Below, in pieces: positions 7,101 to 23,594 of a DNA stretch of 35,047 nucleotides. The DNA lies in the IMG/VR virus record IMGVR_UViG_3300035698_004299, positions 1-35,047 of that record; one strand, given 5' to 3'. A program made the translations under genes and the position numbers. The DNA comes from a virus. Below the pieces are notes generated by a model, which did no database searches, was not told the origin of the DNA, and saw only the letters and a program-made list of their open reading frames with translations. Position 1 is the stretch's first letter. Every line of letters starts with the position of its first letter.

Positions 7101-7129
7101 TAAGGGTCCTTTTTTTTATACTATATACC

Positions 7130-7158
7130 ATTATAGCATACTTTTACTTGCTTGTCAA
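7130..7158 (-). promoter_or_regulatory. Consensus sigma70 promoter for leftward late genes
   Basis: On the minus strand, TTGACA (7158-7153), 17 bases, TATAAT (7135-7130), with TGC directly before the -10 box (extended -10). All twelve box positions match consensus. The start site would be near 7123, about 23 bases upstream of the holin start. It is the only strong promoter directly upstream of the leftward structural genes. Confidence 0.85.
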
Positions 7159-7311
7159 GCATTTTATTTAACTTTCTATCAAAATACCTTAAATTAGCTT
7201 CTCCGTTTGGTCTACGAAGCGTTGCAAGCCTCATAATGTCCCTATTAATGGACATCTTATTCCTTTTATACTTTATAAAATCTATAATCATTAGGCATAC
7301 CTGTCTTATTG

Positions 7312-7362
7312 AGACTAAGGGTGAATAAGATAACCTTTATAAGTTATATCATCCTTTAGTCT
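7312..7362 (+). repeat. Long imperfect hairpin
   Basis: AGACTAAGGGTGA (7312-7324) pairs with TCATCCTTTAGTCT (7349-7362) through 13 pairs with one bulged T and one G-T pair, and the interior ATAAC/GTTAT (7330-7334 with 7343-7347) adds five pairs. The G-T pair exists only if the plus strand is the RNA; on the minus strand it would be C-A. No T-run follows on either strand, so it is not a simple terminator. Confidence 0.6.
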
Positions 7363-7736
7363 TCTGTTTATCCCTGGAACCCAGTGGAAGGGTATCAGGC
7401 TATATGTCCCACTTTCGTGGATCCGTACTTCATAGAGATTATCAGGTGCGGGAGGATGGTGAATCCTCTATGCTTCCGCAATTGCTATCTATCACCCTTA
7501 TTAAGAACCTATTTATTACTCTCTACGGTTTGGAGTACCTCCGTCTCAGGAGAGGCCCTATGAAGCTCAGTATACAACTTTCGTCGTTATTATGCTGTTA
7601 GGTATACCTAGTCTCTTCCGATTGTTCTAGGGCCCTGTAGGGGCCTTTAAAGACGTTAAGGATTGAGATAATCATTCGTCTGTGTATTTGTCACCTATTA
7701 GTGGTTAATTAGTGACACTTCTATTCTTATGTAACC

Positions 7737-7766
7737 ATTATACCACACTAGGTGCCCCCTTGTCAA
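7737..7766 (-). promoter_or_regulatory. Consensus sigma70 promoter inside the non-coding region
   Basis: On the minus strand, TTGACA (7766-7761), 18 bases, TATAAT (7742-7737), preceded by TGG (extended -10). It would start RNA near 7730 reading left through about 600 non-coding bases before the next promoter and the holin gene. No coding frame follows it closely, so its product may be a leader or a non-coding RNA. Confidence 0.78.
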
Positions 7767-7997
7767 GTACTTCCTGCGAATTTTTTACAATAAAACCATA
7801 GTACTACCGTACGGGTGGGAACTCCCCGATACTGGCTGATATTCCCCCTAATGCTCCCGTACAGGAGTATCTTTTGCCCCATAAACAGGTTAACGTCCCT
7901 TTTAAGCACCCACTAGGGCTGACTGGGTGCCAATAGTATAACTACTTATAGGTATACCCCCGTATAAATTGGTATAACTCTGGTGTTTCTTACGTCC

Positions 7998-8038
7998 AGC
8001 GAGCCTCGGTGCCCTTACAAGGGTCCTGGAGGCGAGCT
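7998..8038. repeat. Hairpin with symmetric GA/GA internal loop
   Basis: AGC (7998-8000), GA, GCCTC (8003-8007) pair with GAGGC (8029-8033), GA, GCT (8036-8038). The opposed GA/GA step could form tandem sheared G-A pairs in RNA. Inside, CCCTT (8012-8016) pairs with AAGGG (8019-8023). This looks like a folded RNA element rather than a terminator, because no T-run follows. Confidence 0.5.
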
Positions 8039-8372
8039 AATGTATAAATAATAATAGTATTATCCCCCATAGAGGATATCTGGTGTTTTATCCCCTGTAG
8101 GGTATATTTTCCCTGTGGGTGGGAGGTTGGCCCTCCCCCCTAAAAAAAAGAGTGAAGAAGGAATGGTTGGAACCTATAGCCCCTTAATTGCTGTTTTCTC
8201 TCACTTTGTCCACACCCCCCTAGTATAGTATCTACCATGCCCCCCAAGTTACAGTGTCTACACTCAGCACACACAGCAGGTTAGTGTGTTGTTATGTTGT
8301 TTGTTTTTATTTACAGAGTGTGCACCCCCTCCCCCCTGCCCTACCCATACCATCCAGTGTATATGTATACAT

Positions 8373-8718
8373 GTATGTGTAAGCTCCATACATCCACTGT
8401 ATCAAGAGATCATATGTACCTATACTATACCATAGGTAGCGTACTGATCGTACAGTACAGACAACTATGCCGTGAATAATGGGCGGTGGTGACGTACCAC
8501 AGCACACATACCACATACATACACAACACACAATACTATCACATACACACCACATGATACACACATACCGTACATATCCTATTCCTTTTATGGAGTACGA
8601 TTGCCAGTACGATTACGACTGAATATAAACTAATAGTATATCTATGGGATATTATCACCCACACTACACGCTACTATATACTACGCTGCTTTGTGCACAC
8701 GATATTCTATTATCCACA
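8373..8718. other. Candidate replication origin region
   Basis: A perfect DnaA box TTATCCACA lies at 8710-8718. The heptamer CACATAC occurs four times (8505-8511, 8512-8518, 8540-8546, 8562-8568), with an inverted copy GTATGTG at 8373-8379. The stretch 8500-8580 is nearly all C, A and T on the plus strand, and AT-rich sequence follows to 8800. The region lies in the divergent gap between early and late genes, a usual place for a phage origin. There is only one DnaA box, so host DnaA use is uncertain. Confidence 0.4.
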
Positions 8719-8806
8719 GGATGACATACCCCCCTGACAATTAGAGATAAGCTGTAACCTATTGATAGTAAAGGATAATATAAATGTAATTAATTACTGA
8801 TTGTAC

Positions 8807-8835
8807 TTGACAAGATGGTAATAGTGTACTATACT
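8807..8835 (+). promoter_or_regulatory. Consensus sigma70 promoter for the rightward early operon
   Basis: TTGACA (8807-8812), 17 bases, TATACT (8830-8835). The start would be near 8842, about 30 bases before the first early gene at 8871, which has a GGAG ribosome site. The flanking sequence is AT-rich. This is the first rightward promoter after the divergent region. Confidence 0.85.
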
Positions 8836-8870
8836 TACAGTAAGAAATAAGGGAACAGACGGAGATTAAC

Positions 8871-9585: not shown

Positions 9586-9613
9586 TTGACAAATGCTGAA
9601 TATGTACTATAAT
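9586..9613 (+). promoter_or_regulatory. Consensus sigma70 promoter for the second early cluster
   Basis: TTGACA (9586-9591), 16 bases, TATAAT (9608-9613), both boxes perfect. Transcription should start near 9620, a few bases before the 5' strand of the outer stem of the candidate structured RNA at 9626. The first downstream gene starts at 9733. Confidence 0.85.
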
Positions 9614-9625
9614 TATAATAACAAA

Positions 9626-9708
9626 GAGAGATGCCTAGCGGATGGGAACCAGTGCTAGGGTAAACGCTGGGGCTTGTAACCTCATCTGGTAATAATACAC
9701 GGTCTCTC
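9626..9708 (+). ncRNA. Candidate structured leader RNA with pseudoknot
   Basis: An 83-base element between a perfect promoter and the gene at 9733. The proposed fold is as follows. P1 is GAGAGAT (9626-9632) with GTCTCTC (9702-9708). P2 is GATGGG (9641-9646) with CC-T-CATC (9680-9686, one bulge). P3 is CCAGTG (9649-9654) with CGCTGG (9665-9670), with a ten-base loop. Loop bases CTAGG (9655-9659) can pair with CCTAG (9634-9638) as a pseudoknot. Two G-T pairs (9632-9702, 9653-966) favour the plus strand. The 83-base size with a seven-pair outer stem recalls a tRNA, but no T-arm or CCA exists. It may be a riboswitch, a ribozyme, a protein-binding leader or an RNA-stabilising 5' structure. Confidence 0.55.
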
Positions 9709-9732
9709 ACTTATTACTACAAGGAGAATGAA

Positions 9733-9915
9733 ATGATCATACCAACAGACTATGAAGTAGAGGACATCGATACTAAAGACTACCCAGACTTCAGTGATGC
9801 ATTCATTAGCAAGGCATACCACACAGATGGTAAAGAGTACAACGAACAAGAGCTTGACGCTCTTAACGATGATGACCTACTAAGATATGTACTAATAATG
9901 GAGGCAATGAAATGA
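9733..9915 (+). CDS. Small acidic phage protein, unknown function
   Basis: A 60-residue acidic protein with an AAGGAG ribosome site seven bases upstream of the start. The sequence has DYPDFSDAFISKAY and EYNEQELDALNDD, a pattern I have seen in small conserved proteins of several phages whose role is unknown. It is the first gene after the structured leader, so if the leader is regulatory this gene and those coupled to it are the direct targets. Its stop overlaps the next start (ATGA). Confidence 0.75.
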   Translation: MIIPTDYEVEDIDTKDYPDFSDAFISKAYHTDGKEYNEQELDALNDDDLLRYVLIMEAMK

Positions 9916-12461: not shown

Positions 12462-13127
12462 ATGTATAAATTAATAAATTGTTTAGGAATAATAATCCTA
12501 CTACTATGTACCACTACAGCGCTAGCCAAAGGGGCTAAGGCTGTTATACATGGGGATAAGCCCTATATTGGATGTAAAGGGACAGTAGACGAAGTCTGCC
12601 ATGCGAGATTAACCACAGAAATTGGAAATCCTGAGAAATACAGAGAATTTCTCTATTTACTAGACAGATTGGACGAAACAGACACGGTTTACGTACATTT
12701 AGCAGGCAATGGTGGGCAATATAGGTCTATGTTGCAGATAGTCAACACAATGCAGAGCAGCAAGGCGAAGGTAATCACAGTAGTAGAGGGATACGTATAT
12801 AGCGCTCACGCCGTCATAGCGCTCGCTGGTAAGACAATAGTTATACACCCCAGTACTGTGTTCCTTTTCCATAGATCGTCCCGCTACAGGACAGAGAAGT
12901 CTATTTGTATCGGACAGAGGGGTAAGTTTGACAGAACGGTGAGTGCTTATCTTAAATGTCAGAGATTTCATAAGAAGCTATTAGAGGCCGACGCACATCT
13001 GCTACGCAGAATAGTGGGACGGCTTCTCACAAAGCCAGAGTTTAATGCCATGCTGCAAGGTGCAGATATCATATTACATGGGGATGTAGTACTTAAGAGA
13101 TTAGCTCCCCCACCTAGGGCTAAGTAA
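12462..13127 (+). CDS. ClpP/SppA-like serine peptidase with signal sequence
   Basis: A 221-residue protein. The first 23 residues (basic start, hydrophobic core LGIIILLLC, then ALA) look like a cleavable signal peptide or membrane anchor. The rest shows the ClpP/crotonase-like peptidase fold: VHLAGNGG (78-85) as oxyanion loop, the nucleophile in YVYSAHAV (Ser114) and the histidine in FLFHRSS (His137). A catalytic Asp is not certain. ClpP itself is cytoplasmic, so an exported or anchored version is unusual and closer in idea to SppA or periplasmic ClpP-like proteins. Four cysteines fall outside the signal region. It ends on the start of the primase gene (TAATG). A second, soluble relative lies at 15682-16272. 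Confidence 0.7.
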   Translation: MYKLINCLGIIILLLCTTTALAKGAKAVIHGDKPYIGCKGTVDEVCHARLTTEIGNPEKYREFLYLLDRLDETDTVYVHLAGNGGQYRSMLQIVNTMQSSKAKVITVVEGYVYSAHAVIALAGKTIVIHPSTVFLFHRSSRYRTEKSICIGQRGKFDRTVSAYLKCQRFHKKLLEADAHLLRRIVGRLLTKPEFNAMLQGADIILHGDVVLKRLAPPPRAK

Positions 13128-15681: not shown

Positions 15682-16272
15682 ATGAGTACAGAAGAATATG
15701 ACGATATGGCCTCCCCTTACAAGATCTTTTCTAAGACTACAGCAGGGCAGGAGCATGATGTTTACCTATCCGATTCCGTGGAAACAGATAGCGCCGAGTA
15801 CATAGACCTATTAAGGTTTTTTAATAAGGTCCCAGCCAATGACTATGTAACGGTACATTTAGCTAACTTTGGGGGAGCTGTGCATACAGGTCTTCGTGTG
15901 GCACACGCTATGCGGAACTGTGACGGAATAGTTACCGTCAATGTAGATGCACCATGCTACAGCATGGGCGCTATCTTGGCTACCTCAGGGGATATACTTA
16001 TAATGAACCCAGGAACATTCTTAATGTACCATAATTATTCAACCGTTGAGGGCGGAAAAGCTGGGGAACTAAAGACAGCAGTACTACAGTATGAGAAGCA
16101 TTTTCAATATAGTCTTAAATACTTCTGCTCTCCCTTCTTAACCAAGAAAGAGATAAAAGATTTATCTCGCGATACAGATGTGTACATCCATTACAACGAT
16201 GATGATCTGGTGAAGCGGTGTAAACGACACTTCCCAATGGTGAAAGATATGGAGATAACTAAGTATGACTAA
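15682..16272 (+). CDS. ClpP-like serine peptidase
   Basis: A 196-residue ClpP-family protein, the size of bacterial ClpP. It shows VTVHLANFGG (57-66) as the oxyanion region, the nucleophile in CYSMGAIL (Ser94) and the catalytic histidine in LMYHNYS (His117). It has no signal sequence, so it should be cytoplasmic. ClpP needs an AAA+ unfoldase partner to degrade folded proteins, and none of the ClpX/ClpA type is seen here; it could use host ClpX/ClpA or act alone. It lies between helicase and polymerase and overlaps the polymerase start by eight bases. It is similar in motif order to the signal-bearing protein at 12462, suggesting an old duplication. Confidence 0.82.
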   Translation: MSTEEYDDMASPYKIFSKTTAGQEHDVYLSDSVETDSAEYIDLLRFFNKVPANDYVTVHLANFGGAVHTGLRVAHAMRNCDGIVTVNVDAPCYSMGAILATSGDILIMNPGTFLMYHNYSTVEGGKAGELKTAVLQYEKHFQYSLKYFCSPFLTKKEIKDLSRDTDVYIHYNDDDLVKRCKRHFPMVKDMEITKYD

Positions 16273-18533: not shown

Positions 18534-18838
18534 CAGAGAATAAAGTAGACGAATTGATTACATTTATTTGTACCTACCCAGAGTTCGCCGATATCATGCA
18601 TGTCATAGAGTTCGGAGCGAACAAACATGGGGATGATAATTGGATACAACAAGCAGGGAAGAAGAGCAGCCACAAAGATATGCATGCATCTATATTTAGA
18701 CACATTGCAGAATCTTCAGCCGGGGTCCGGGAAGACCACGAGACAGGGCTAGACCCCTTGCTACACGCAGCAGTGAGGTGCTTAATGCTTTACACTAGAA
18801 AAACCAGACACTTAGACCACCCAGAGGATGAGGCTTAA
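18530..18838 (+). CDS. dATP/dGTP diphosphohydrolase-like protein (DUF5664 type)
   Basis: A 102-residue helical protein with IEFGANKHGDDNW (residues about 26-38), an ASIFRHI segment (about 53-59) and DHETGLDPLLHAAVRCLMLY (about 68-87). The pattern FGAxKxxxxNW, then xxxRHI, then DxETGLxxLxHAAxxxLxL is that of the phage dATP/dGTP diphosphohydrolase family (PF18909, relatives called MazZ in phages that use 2-aminoadenine). Members are related to MazG and hydrolyse dNTPs to dNMP. Here no PurZ or DatZ partner is seen, so Z-base synthesis is not implied. It may only adjust nucleotide pools. It overlaps the small gene upstream and precedes prkA. Confidence 0.7.
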   Translation: MTENKVDELITFICTYPEFADIMHVIEFGANKHGDDNWIQQAGKKSSHKDMHASIFRHIAESSAGVREDHETGLDPLLHAAVRCLMLYTRKTRHLDHPEDEA

Positions 18839-18839
18839 T

Positions 18840-20759
18840 ATGAAATTGTTAAAAACTTTACAAAATGAATACCAACAAAAGCAAAATAAAGTGATGACCC
18901 TTGAGGAATACCTTAAGCTGGCCAAGAAAGATAAGAGTATCTTCGCATCGCCAGCAGAAAGGATGCTATCAGCAATAGGAAAGCCTACACTAATAGATAC
19001 GGGAAAAGATCCCCGACTAGGTCGAATCTTCGGCAATAGGGTTATCCGCTCATATAGCACCTTTCAAGATTTCTACGGTATGGAGGAAGTAATCGAACGA
19101 ATCGTTTCATTCTTCACCCATGCAGCGCAGGGATTAGAGGAATCTAGACAGATATTATATTTATTAGGACCGGTAGGGTCCGCTAAATCTTCGATAGCAG
19201 AGCGCTTAAAAGAGTTAATGGAGGAGCAGCCCTTCTTCGTGTTAGCGGATGTGGAGGGCAACCTAAGCCCAGTTAACGAGTCTCCTTTGGGGATCTTCGA
19301 AACACAACAAGCAAAAGAGTTAGGTATACCAGAACGGTACTTAACCATACGCCCATCACCATGGGCGCTTAAGAGGATTGACGAATATGACGGTGATTTA
19401 TCCAAATTCAGAGTGGTACAAGTCTCCCCATCAAGGGACAGACAAATCGGTATCAGTAAAACCGAGCCCGGTGACGAAAATAACCAGGACATTAGCACCC
19501 TTGTCGGTAAGCTCGATATTAGAAAACTTGAGTTCTTTTCCCAAAATGACGCAGATGCCTATAATTATAGTGGGGGATTGTGTTTATCAAATCAAGGGAT
19601 TCTTGAATTCGTCGAGATGTTCAAAGCCCCGATTAAAGTATTGCACCCATTACTCACAGCAACTCAGGAACGGAACTATAAAGGAACTGAAGCTATCAGC
19701 GCCATCCCTTTTGATGGTATTATATTAGCCCATAGTAATGAAAGTGAGTGGGACACCTTCAAGGGAGACCAGAACAATGAGGCATTCCTAGATAGGGTGT
19801 ACATAGTAGAGGTCCCATACTGTTTACGAATCGATGAAGAAGTTACAATTTATAAGAAGCTGTTAGCAAGTAGTGACTTGGCTAAAGCTAAGAGAGCACC
19901 AGGTACTCTACATATGTTAGCGAAGTTCTCTATCCTATCAAGGCTAGATCAACCGGAAAACTCAACGCTTGAAGCTAAGCTATTAACCTATAACGGTGAG
20001 AACATCAAAGATAAAGATGTAAAAGCAAAGGCTTACCATGAATATAAAGAAGCTGCTAGCAGGGAAGAGGGATTTTTCGGAGTATCCACACGACTAGCCT
20101 ACAAGGTTTTATCGGAAGTGTATAACTTCGACCCAGATGAAATAGCTGCTGATCCTGTACATTTATTGTACATCTTAGAGAAAGTTATTAAGAAAGAAAG
20201 ATATTCGGAAGACAAAGAGTTATTATACCTCACCTTCTTGAAAGACTTCCTAGCCCCACGCTACGCACAAGAGGTAGGTAAGGACATACAAACAGCATAT
20301 TTAGATAGTTATAGCGAATATGGGCAAGCATTATTTGATCGATACATCCTATTTGCTGACCATTGGGTACAAGATAATGATTATCGTGACCCAGATACAG
20401 GTAATATGTTCGATAGATCAGCACTTAACAACGAGTTAGAGCGAATTGAGAAGCCAGCTGGCATCGCTAACCCTAAAGATTTTAGGAACGAGATAACCAA
20501 TTTCGCCTTACGCTACCAAGCGAGGCACGATGGTAAGAACCCTAAATGGACTTCTTATGAAAAACTAAGAAGAGTAATCGAGTCAACAATGTTTAGTAAA
20601 ACCGAGGACTTACTGCCTATTATCTCCTTTGGAGGGCATGGATGTAGCGATGATCGGAAAAAACATGACGCATTTGTTGACAGAATGGTAGAAATGGGCT
20701 ATACTAAGAAACAAGTAAAGAGATTAGTGGAATGGCATATCAGAATGCAGAAGAGTTAA
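18840..20759 (+). CDS. prkA: PrkA-type AAA+ serine protein kinase
   Basis: A 639-residue protein, against 644 in E. coli YeaG/PrkA, and alignable over its whole length from memory. Landmarks include AAERxLxAIG-like start (SPAERMLSAIG), FYGMEEVIERIV, P-loop GPVGSAKSS (110-118, K116), KTEPGDENNQDIS, EFVEMFKAPIKVLHPLLTAT, FDGIILAHSNESEW, EYRDPDTG-like region and KKHDAFVDRMVEMGY near the end. PrkA proteins have an AAA+ domain and a C-terminal kinase-like domain and act in starvation responses; ATP-dependent protease activity has been proposed for the Bacillus protein. I chose ATG 18840, preceded by GAGG at the right distance, over ATG 18828. The gene is rare as a phage gene. Confidence 0.95.
   Translation: MKLLKTLQNEYQQKQNKVMTLEEYLKLAKKDKSIFASPAERMLSAIGKPTLIDTGKDPRLGRIFGNRVIRSYSTFQDFYGMEEVIERIVSFFTHAAQGLEESRQILYLLGPVGSAKSSIAERLKELMEEQPFFVLADVEGNLSPVNESPLGIFETQQAKELGIPERYLTIRPSPWALKRIDEYDGDLSKFRVVQVSPSRDRQIGISKTEPGDENNQDISTLVGKLDIRKLEFFSQNDADAYNYSGGLCLSNQGILEFVEMFKAPIKVLHPLLTATQERNYKGTEAISAIPFDGIILAHSNESEWDTFKGDQNNEAFLDRVYIVEVPYCLRIDEEVTIYKKLLASSDLAKAKRAPGTLHMLAKFSILSRLDQPENSTLEAKLLTYNGENIKDKDVKAKAYHEYKEAASREEGFFGVSTRLAYKVLSEVYNFDPDEIAADPVHLLYILEKVIKKERYSEDKELLYLTFLKDFLAPRYAQEVGKDIQTAYLDSYSEYGQALFDRYILFADHWVQDNDYRDPDTGNMFDRSALNNELERIEKPAGIANPKDFRNEITNFALRYQARHDGKNPKWTSYEKLRRVIESTMFSKTEDLLPIISFGGHGCSDDRKKHDAFVDRMVEMGYTKKQVKRLVEWHIRMQKS
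20677..20705 (+). promoter_or_regulatory. Candidate promoter before the YeaH/SpoVR part
   Basis: TTGACA (20677-20682), 17 bases, TATACT (20700-20705), 72 bases before the gene at 20777. Eleven of twelve positions match. The sequence also encodes the conserved PrkA C-terminus (FVDRMVEMGYT), so a chance match through codon choice must be considered. Confidence 0.45.
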
Positions 20760-20776
20760 ACTAAGGAGAAAACAGA

Positions 20777-20968
20777 GTGAAGGTATTATTTGATTTGAGT
20801 ATAGGAACGGCAGAGGGCCCTTCCGGGTCCCAAGAGCCAACCGCTAGGCTGCGATACGGAGACAACCTAGCGGAGGTTATCCTGCTCAATGCTGTAGGTA
20901 TGGGGATGTCTTTAAGTAATTGGGTTGCCTATGTGCAGTCCGCACAATCAGGAGAGAATAATGAGTAA
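20777..20968 (+). CDS. Small protein between PrkA and YeaH genes, unknown function
   Basis: A 63-residue protein starting with GTG, eight bases after a clear AAGGAG site. The N-terminal part MKVLFDLSIGTAEGPSGSQE is followed by ARLRYGDNLAEVILLNAVGM and ends SGENNE. It overlaps the following small membrane gene by eight bases. Bacterial prkA-yeaH pairs that I know do not carry such a gene between them. No family is recognised. Confidence 0.65.
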   Translation: MKVLFDLSIGTAEGPSGSQEPTARLRYGDNLAEVILLNAVGMGMSLSNWVAYVQSAQSGENNE

Positions 20969-21089
20969 AGCATCGGTAAGTATAGTTAAGAGATTTAAGA
21001 ATCTCGCTAAATTCATCCATACAGGGATGAAGACAGGGGATAAAGTTCTCATAATAATGGTAATTATAGCATTGGTGGTACTAATTTAA
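20961..21089 (+). CDS. Small single-pass membrane protein next to YeaH
   Basis: A 42-residue protein with a basic N-terminal part (MSKASVSIVKRFKNLAKFIH) and a C-terminal hydrophobic segment (VLIIMVIIALVVLI) that ends the protein. GGAG lies eight bases upstream. Its stop and the YeaH start share a base (TAATG), so the two may be translationally coupled, which suggests but does not prove a shared function, for example tethering the YeaH/PrkA complex to the membrane. Confidence 0.6.
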   Translation: MSKASVSIVKRFKNLAKFIHTGMKTGDKVLIIMVIIALVVLI

Positions 21090-22246
21090 TGACAATCATC
21101 GACAGACGTAAAAATAGCAAAGGTAAATCGACTACTAATCGTAAGAAGTTTATCGACCGCTATAAACGTCAAATCAAGAACGAAGTGGAGGACCTCGCAA
21201 AGGATCGGAATATCCAAGATATTCTGGATTCTGGTGAGGTTACTATCTCCGGCGATGATATCTCGGAGCCTACATTTGAGCATAACTCGGATACAGGCTC
21301 TAGGGACCACGTGTTACCAGGTAACAAGAAGTATAGACGTGGTGACCACATCAAGAAGGATAAAGGCGGACAAGGACAAGGCCGCGGAGGGTCTAACGAT
21401 GGGGATGGATCAGATGAATTCAGTTTCGTACTGACTAAAGATGAATTCTTAGATTTGTATTTCCATGGGATGGAGTTACCAGACTTCTTAAAAGAAAGCG
21501 CTAAGGATAACGTACGCTTTAAGTATAAGAAAGCTGGATACAGTAAAGACGGGATACCAGCCCGATTAAATGTTAAGAAGACCATGGAGCAGGCCATAGG
21601 CCGTCGCTTCGCTACTAAGGGACAAGGCAAGAAGCCTAGGTACCTAGATGATGAGGATATCCGATACGATTACTTCGCTAAGAAGCCAATACCAGTACGT
21701 ACAGCAGTAATGTTTTGCTTAATGGATTGCTCAGGCAGTATGGGAGAGTTCCATAAAACTATAGCTAAAAAGTTTTACTTACTACTATACTTATTCTTAC
21801 ATAAAGAATATGAATTTATTGAGCTTGTGTTTATAAGACATACACATAGAGCCTCGGAAGTAGATGAACATACCTTCTTCCACGGAAGAGAGACAGGTGG
21901 TACGGTAGTTTCCACAGCATTAGAACTAATGAAAGATATTATGGATACTAGATACGACCACGCAAGTACTAACTTCTATGTAGCGCAGGCCTCAGATGGA
22001 GATAACTGGGCAGATGATGCGCAGGCTACCAAGGACCTATTAAGACAGATTATACCATTAGTACAATACTATGTATATATCGAGATTAACGAAATGGAAT
22101 GGGCCGAACAACGGGCCAACATAGGCCTCGATGCCTTATTGAATACCTTTAAGTCTCTAGAAAGAGAATTTAAGAATACAAAATGTAAGCAAGTATATGA
22201 CGCATCAGATGTATACCCAGCACTACAGGAGTTATTTAAGAAATGA
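21089..22246 (+). CDS. yeaH: YeaH/YhbH family VWA protein (UPF0229)
   Basis: A 385-residue protein matching E. coli YeaH (427). Landmarks: IDRRKNSKGKSTTNRKKFI at the start, the Gly-rich linker (GGQGQGRGGSNDGDGSDEF, 93-111), KDEFLDLYFHGMELP, and a VWA domain with the MIDAS motif DCSGS (D213, S215, S217), the ETGGT threonine (T269 or T272) and ASDGDNWADD (D303). About 43 residues of a helical, coiled-coil-like segment before the VWA domain of YeaH are missing (around residue 175-185 here). VWA proteins pair with AAA+ proteins, and in bacteria yeaH lies next to prkA. Translation is coupled to the membrane gene upstream. Confidence 0.93.
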   Translation: MTIIDRRKNSKGKSTTNRKKFIDRYKRQIKNEVEDLAKDRNIQDILDSGEVTISGDDISEPTFEHNSDTGSRDHVLPGNKKYRRGDHIKKDKGGQGQGRGGSNDGDGSDEFSFVLTKDEFLDLYFHGMELPDFLKESAKDNVRFKYKKAGYSKDGIPARLNVKKTMEQAIGRRFATKGQGKKPRYLDDEDIRYDYFAKKPIPVRTAVMFCLMDCSGSMGEFHKTIAKKFYLLLYLFLHKEYEFIELVFIRHTHRASEVDEHTFFHGRETGGTVVSTALELMKDIMDTRYDHASTNFYVAQASDGDNWADDAQATKDLLRQIIPLVQYYVYIEINEMEWAEQRANIGLDALLNTFKSLEREFKNTKCKQVYDASDVYPALQELFKK

Positions 22247-22277
22247 GTAGGATTAAACGAGCTAAAGAGGACTTATT

Positions 22278-23594
22278 GTGGTAAAAGTAGATGATACTGG
22301 GATTAAACCCTTATTCACATCAGCAGAATGGGATTTCGAGACTATCCAAAAGACTTGGGATGCTATCGATAAGATAGGCAAAGATGTCTTTGGATTAGAC
22401 TATTATGCCCCACAGATTGAAATGATTACAGCAGAGCAAATGCTGGATGCCTATAGCTCGGTAGCTATGCCGGTCATGTACAACCATTGGTCCTTTGGTA
22501 AGTCGTTCATCCAAAATGAAAGAGCATACAATCGGGGACAAATGGGATTGGCCTACGAGGTAGTGATTAACACTAACCCATCTATAGCATACCTTATGGA
22601 AGAGAATACTATGACTATGCAAACATTAGTTATGGCACACGCAGTGTGTGGACATGCCTCATTCTTTAAGAATAACTATCTATTCCAAGAATGGACAGAT
22701 GCCGGGAGCATCTTAGAGTATCTTAAGTTTGCTAAAGAATACATACATAAATGTGAGAGTAAGTACGGCAACACGGCCGTAGAGAAGATACTGGACGCTT
22801 GTCACGCATTACAGTACTACGGTGTGGATAAATACCAACGAGCGAACGTACTGAAAGCTGACCTTAAAGCTGAACGAGTAGAAGTATGGGAACAATACTT
22901 TGATGAGAAGTTTGACCATGTACTCAATACAACAGTAACCGATGCCGTAGGTACTCGTAATAGTGCCAAAGCTAGAGCACTTAAGGGCGCAACTACAGAC
23001 GTTAGGCACGCAGAGAATGAGGAGAATATCCTATATTTCATAGAGAAGAACTCCACAGTATTAGCCCCATGGCAACAAGAGATAGTACGTATCGTGCGTA
23101 AGATAGCACAGTACTTCTATCCCCAAATGCAAACACAGTTAATGAATGAGGGTTGGGCTACATTTACACATTATAATATAATGACAGAATTACATGGCCA
23201 AGGACTGATAACAGACGGTAGCTTTATGGAGTTTTTACAGAGCCATTGCGGAGTTGTTGCACAACCAGACTTTGATAGTGATTACTATTCAGGTATTAAT
23301 GTATATGCACTAGGGTTTGCGATGATGCAAGACATCAAAAGGATATGCCAGAACCCAACAGCTGAGGATAGGAAATGGTTCCCAGACTTGGTAGACCAAG
23401 AGTGGTTACCCACAATGAAGGATATAGTAGAGGACTACAGAGATGAATCGTTTGTTTTACAGTTCTTATCGCCAAAGATTATTAGAGATTTCAAGTTATT
23501 CACGCTACATAATGATGAGTGTACATCAAAGTACACAGTAGCAGCGACCCATTCGGATGAAGATATATTAAAAAATCCGACAATCGCTTTCTAA
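22278..23594 (+). CDS. spoVR: SpoVR/YcgB family protein, N-terminal 438 residues (frameshifted)
   Basis: GTG start with AGAGG seven bases before it. This frame gives 438 residues that match SpoVR/YcgB through FxLFxxxDDE: MPVMYNHWSFGKSF, the MAHAVCGHASFFKNN motif (H121, H126), NEGWATFTHY (290-299) and SPKIIRDFKLFTL. E. coli YcgB has about 510 residues, so the C-terminal 75 are missing here. They are found, in the right order and without gap, in the +1 frame at 23572-23820. The shift falls at an A6 run (23570-23575). SpoVR is needed for spore cortex in Bacillus; YcgB acts with PrkA and YeaH in starvation. The molecular role is not settled. Removing one A would give a 513-residue protein. Confidence 0.93.
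   Translation: MVKVDDTGIKPLFTSAEWDFETIQKTWDAIDKIGKDVFGLDYYAPQIEMITAEQMLDAYSSVAMPVMYNHWSFGKSFIQNERAYNRGQMGLAYEVVINTNPSIAYLMEENTMTMQTLVMAHAVCGHASFFKNNYLFQEWTDAGSILEYLKFAKEYIHKCESKYGNTAVEKILDACHALQYYGVDKYQRANVLKADLKAERVEVWEQYFDEKFDHVLNTTVTDAVGTRNSAKARALKGATTDVRHAENEENILYFIEKNSTVLAPWQQEIVRIVRKIAQYFYPQMQTQLMNEGWATFTHYNIMTELHGQGLITDGSFMEFLQSHCGVVAQPDFDSDYYSGINVYALGFAMMQDIKRICQNPTAEDRKWFPDLVDQEWLPTMKDIVEDYRDESFVLQFLSPKIIRDFKLFTLHNDECTSKYTVAATHSDEDILKNPTIAF

Follow-up and report, generated by a model that had tools for sequence, protein, structure and literature searches.

The window analyzed here, 35,047 bases in length, is the entire IMG/VR virus record IMGVR_UViG_3300035698_004299 (linear class), a record that may be incomplete. 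It is laid out as a leftward block of late genes, then a non-coding divide, then a rightward block. Among the leftward late genes are a terminase 51% identical to that of EBPR podovirus 1 and an SU10-type portal, and the rightward block holds small genes, a primase, a DnaB-like helicase, a DNA polymerase A and nucleases. Reading through the window's ORF list by eye turned up no gene for an RNA polymerase, and host RNA polymerase therefore probably reads the whole phage genome. The divide is an apparently non-coding 1.76 kb at 7110-8870 that separates the two blocks, and promoter-like sites within it at 7766 (minus), 7158 (minus) and 8807 (plus) have CTTGACAAG-like -35 regions in common. Two ClpP-family protease-like genes are found in the rightward block (12462-13127 and 15682-16272, plus strand). 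At 18828-23594, also on the plus strand, genes for a PrkA serine kinase, a DUF444 (YeaH/YhbH-like) protein and SpoVR stand consecutively, a cellular stress or sporulation trio on a 35-kb phage. Phage relatives of this PrkA are few, comprising Enterobacter phage LAU1 and three very large uncultured phages (57-61%) and Thermus phages (25-29%).

The subject of this analysis is an 83-nt leader that lies between a promoter and a small gene near the start of the rightward block (Table 1). The promoter directly before it is indeed perfect, as a first-pass annotation had described it, and a further TATAAT at 9614-9619 abuts its -10 box. By the usual promoter spacing the transcript likely starts near 9620, and helix P1 is predicted to begin 6 nt past that start. 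The ribosome site also stands where it had been placed, AAGGAG starting with the 13th base past the last stem base, ahead of the ATG. The product of the small gene has relatives in 74 viral loci and is without a Pfam family.

Table 1. Elements of the leader region and their positions in the window
Feature	Position	Strand	Remarks
Sigma-70-type promoter, TTGACA-N16-TATAAT	9586-9613	+	12 of 12 consensus positions; 16-bp spacer
P1	9626-9631/9703-9708	+	Six Watson-Crick pairs; pair probability about 0.57-0.76
Proposed pseudoknot (PK) 5' strand, CCUAG	9634-9638(9)	+	Complementary to 9655(4)-9659
P2	9639-9646/9681-9688	+	Two G-U pairs; pair probability 0.74-0.99
Proposed P3	9649-9654/9665-9670	+	Complementary, one G-U pair; pair probability 0.00 without PK
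Proposed PK 3' strand, CUAGG, within P3 loop	9655-9659	+	Minimum free energy (MFE) fold pairs 9655-9658 with 9667-9670 instead
Shine-Dalgarno sequence, AAGGAG	9721-9726	+	Mostly unpaired in predicted ensemble
Small gene of 60 codons, ATG at 9733	9733-9915	+	First gene of transcript

The leader is a GC island, with 52% GC vs 21% and 29% in its flanks, which places it among the 2-3% most GC-rich 83-nt windows. It contains no terminator and no ORF longer than 16 codons, and the short ORFs have no good ribosome site ahead of them. A leader peptide or mini-gene could in principle be read from ATG 9631 (MPSGWEPVLG) or ATG 9642 (MGTSARVNAGACNLIW), as neither frame is interrupted and two stop codons close the second. 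However, neither ATG has a good Shine-Dalgarno sequence, short frames of this kind are expected by chance and no homologue was found, and we give this reading hardly any credence.

Predicted fold of the leader

The plus strand of the 83 nt folds with an MFE of -28.9 kcal/mol and a z score of about -2.5 (range -2.2 to -2.6), a stability equaled by 1-2% of dinucleotide shuffles (19 of 1500 and 37 of 2000). The minus strand reaches -19.2 kcal/mol (z -1.2). This bias towards the plus strand had been anticipated from two G-T pairs that favor it, both of which lie in P2, and a third lies in P3. Behind the remaining plus-strand promoter-like sites that were tested, z scores run from -0.7 to +1.0, and two minus-strand stretches, after 7766 and 12443, have z scores of -3.5 and -3.1. 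Against all phage windows the stability of the leader is modest, with about 2% of 84-nt windows phage-wide equally stable for their GC.

These numbers bear on whether the hairpin arose by chance and has no function in a plainly non-coding leader. Its stability is unexceptional within the phage, shuffles equal it at the rate given above and no conservation was found, all of which are compatible with chance. Chance does not account as readily for a sharp GC island exactly between promoter and ribosome site, or for a plus-strand bias alongside z scores between -0.7 and +1.0 for the other plus-strand post-promoter stretches tested, and we regard this explanation as unlikely, though deserving of serious consideration. 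Given the GC island, the z score, the plus-strand bias, the promoter before it and the open ribosome site after it, a structured leader is plausible, and it is probably real.

The first-pass annotation had drawn the 83 bases as P1, P2 and P3 in one stack with a loop-to-junction pseudoknot. The complementarity of all four helices is present and P1 and P2 are recovered by prediction, but P3 and the pseudoknot are not: the MFE fold retains P1 and P2, and an inner helix at 9655-9658/9667-9670 takes the place of P3 and PK. UCUCU (9703-9707) could alternatively pair, weakly, with GGAGA (9723-9727), but this helix is absent from the predicted fold.

Nested P1-P2-P3 without PK comes to -19.4 kcal/mol. 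With the PK bases held free, the constrained fold reaches -21.9 kcal/mol, and PK stacking is worth -8.8. Under a pseudoknot penalty of 7-9 kcal/mol, which is a general modelling value, the pseudoknotted fold would lie at about -22 to -24 kcal/mol, leaving it less stable than the plain hairpin by about 5-7 kcal/mol. Part of this cost could be offset by Mg2+ or by contacts of the A-rich loop. P3 with PK arises in 13% of shuffles and P2 with both in 0.4%, and all four helices occur together in 0 of 10,000 shuffles under a descriptor that is post hoc and taken from the leader sequence itself. In the growing transcript the PK strands are predicted to pair first, as a simple hairpin (-12.4 kcal/mol), and P2 wins once its 3' strand emerges. 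The modelled pseudoknot thus appears energetically disfavored and is unproven. The proposal of a new structured RNA with a pseudoknot is not supported: the energies prefer the plain hairpin, shuffles often contain P3 with PK, and the searches gave no homologue in which covariation could be followed.

A separate stretch of the divide deserves mention here. At 7160-7730 on the minus strand, 571 nt without a long ORF lie behind a consensus promoter with an extended -10 (7766-7737). This stretch folds to -144.5 kcal/mol (z -3.2, with 0 of 100 shuffles as stable; plus strand z -2.9), matches Rfam only by chance and has no similar phage DNA. We suggest it as a candidate large structured phage RNA; its folding signal is stronger and far longer than that of the leader, and it is the better lead.

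Searches for relatives and comparison with known RNAs

Rfam 15 yielded no match in the window at the gathering cut-off, and the sole match at E values up to 10 was to a snoRNA, by chance, and begins downstream of the leader. The earlier impression that the leader fits no riboswitch or ribozyme consensus therefore holds at the Rfam level. Homologous leaders, sought for a covariation check, were not found. DNA patterns, exact and gapped, were derived from P3/PK, J3/2 and the 5' half and run against viral contigs and GTDB contigs, and blastn was run with the leader in phages and plasmids; none of the viral contigs, GTDB contigs, phage records or plasmid records gave a leader homologue. Five pattern matches in viral contigs were attributed to chance; the two among them to the PK pattern proved to be one sequence without the other helices.

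Relatives of the phage were gathered via the downstream protein, the polymerase and the terminase. In 45 of the 74 loci with relatives of the downstream gene, none of the 150-base stretches upstream of it resembles the leader, and a covariance model built on one sequence, with a reach of close relatives only, found no homologue over 124 loci and 18 records. The best local blastn match among 185 loci (L086) sits in an opposite-strand gene, and what looked like another copy of the leader, at 20.8 kb, is a small reading frame. In L077, the nearest relative in which the region is readable (polymerase 45-46% identical), genes begin immediately after the promoter-like sites; the leaders there, as read by eye, span about 15 bases, and none is long. 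Two ORFs of L077 (5892-6539 and 9082-9714) occupy similar places to the ClpP-family pair of our phage and resemble it in sequence. The absence of leader homologues in the searched collections is weak evidence, and with no homologue found, nothing indicates selection on the fold.

In HDV-like ribozymes, P1 and P2 form a pseudoknot, and an obligatory P3 hairpin stands between the P2 5' strand and the P1 3' strand. The leader is similar in that two crossing helices follow in direct succession (CCUAGC then GGAUGGG), but only seven to eight bases (AACCAGU) separate its strands, too few for a P3 hairpin, and it has neither a P4 nor an Rfam match. A riboswitch expression platform is likewise missing from the leader, which has no terminator and in whose predicted fold the ribosome site is mostly open and not sequestered. 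With no terminator, no sequestered ribosome site and no match to a ribozyme family, no feature of the leader speaks for its sensing a metabolite or cleaving itself.

The put RNA of HK022 is a processive antiterminator that consists of two side-by-side stem-loops with a triplex (PMC9378689). Like it, the leader is about 70-80 nt long and follows immediately on a phage promoter, and the phage is seemingly read by host RNA polymerase; unlike it, the leader is predicted to form a single nested stack once fully made. No significant local similarity was detected between the leader and HK022 24-32 kb, an 8-kb stretch in which the put sites are unannotated and which may not hold both. Put-type RNAs are also marked by termination suppression dependent on the beta' zinc-binding domain.

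It is conceivable that the leader belongs to an undescribed family of pseudoknotted RNAs and works either as a sensor or, in the way of put, as an antiterminator through which host RNA polymerase is altered to transcribe the long rightward block. All four helices can be drawn, the full set is absent from the 10,000 shuffles, and the PK strands are the first to pair as the transcript grows. PK also abuts P3 and leaves an A-rich loop (GUAAA), an H-type-like arrangement, and the position of the leader behind a strong promoter, together with its length of about 80 nt, resembles that of HK022 putL (PMC9378689). Against this stand the energetic deficit under usual penalties, the frequency of P3 with PK in shuffles, the lack of homologues and the different, two-stem-loop form of put RNA (PMC9378689). 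Furthermore, since only two weak terminator-like sites occur on the plus strand across 9.7-28 kb, there would be little for an antiterminator to read through. We consider membership in such a family distinctly improbable.

Possible roles of the leader

A stem with internal loops between a promoter and the ribosome site of a small gene could also serve as the binding site of an early phage protein that regulates its own translation or transcription. The sequence CCTAGC-N14-GCTAGG is a dyad in the DNA as well, with half-site starts 20 bp apart, and its sole exact occurrence is in the leader. At up to 3 mismatches, however, the dyad has 14 matches vs 13.5 expected, and no candidate regulator was identified, so that a protein site seems improbable. 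An operator dyad common to the phage's promoters was rejected, since the other promoters carry no repeat of it.

Of the four roles raised in the first-pass annotation (metabolite sensing, protein binding, self-cleavage and stabilization of the early transcript), the last is the least demanding, because the leader lacks a terminator, leaves its ribosome site open and matches no family. The leader is most likely an ordinary protective hairpin, previously unseen. More specifically, we hold it to be about an even proposition that this hairpin both protects the transcript and keeps the ribosome site open. The leader would then be the 5' untranslated region of a transcript from near the start of the rightward block, folding, a few bases in from the 5' end, as one long imperfect hairpin made up of P1, P2 and the local inner helix. 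Such a hairpin would shield the 5' end from decay and would keep the beginning of the message folded on itself, leaving AAGGAG, 13 bases on, accessible and allowing high-level production from the first gene. We infer the start near 9620, the formation of the hairpin in the cell and the protection of the message.

5' stem-loop leaders of the ompA type stabilize bacterial and phage messages. The phage leader shares with them a stem-loop near the 5' end that is untranslated and has an open ribosome site behind it, and differs in having six unpaired bases before the stem and a single long imperfect hairpin. Those six unpaired bases would weaken the protection of the 5' end. In addition, transcripts from the 8807 promoter may run through this region as well, and the leader may therefore not be a 5' end in every transcript.

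A bolder reading makes the leader the first known example of a family of pseudoknotted phage RNAs that, as early transcription begins, either act on host RNA polymerase or sense a signal of infection; we think this very improbable. Should the pseudoknot be demonstrated along with a role that depends on polymerase or on a ligand, the leader would be a protein-free control element in a phage group without a close relative in the searched collections. If it is merely a stabilizing hairpin, it is an ordinary piece of phage gene expression.
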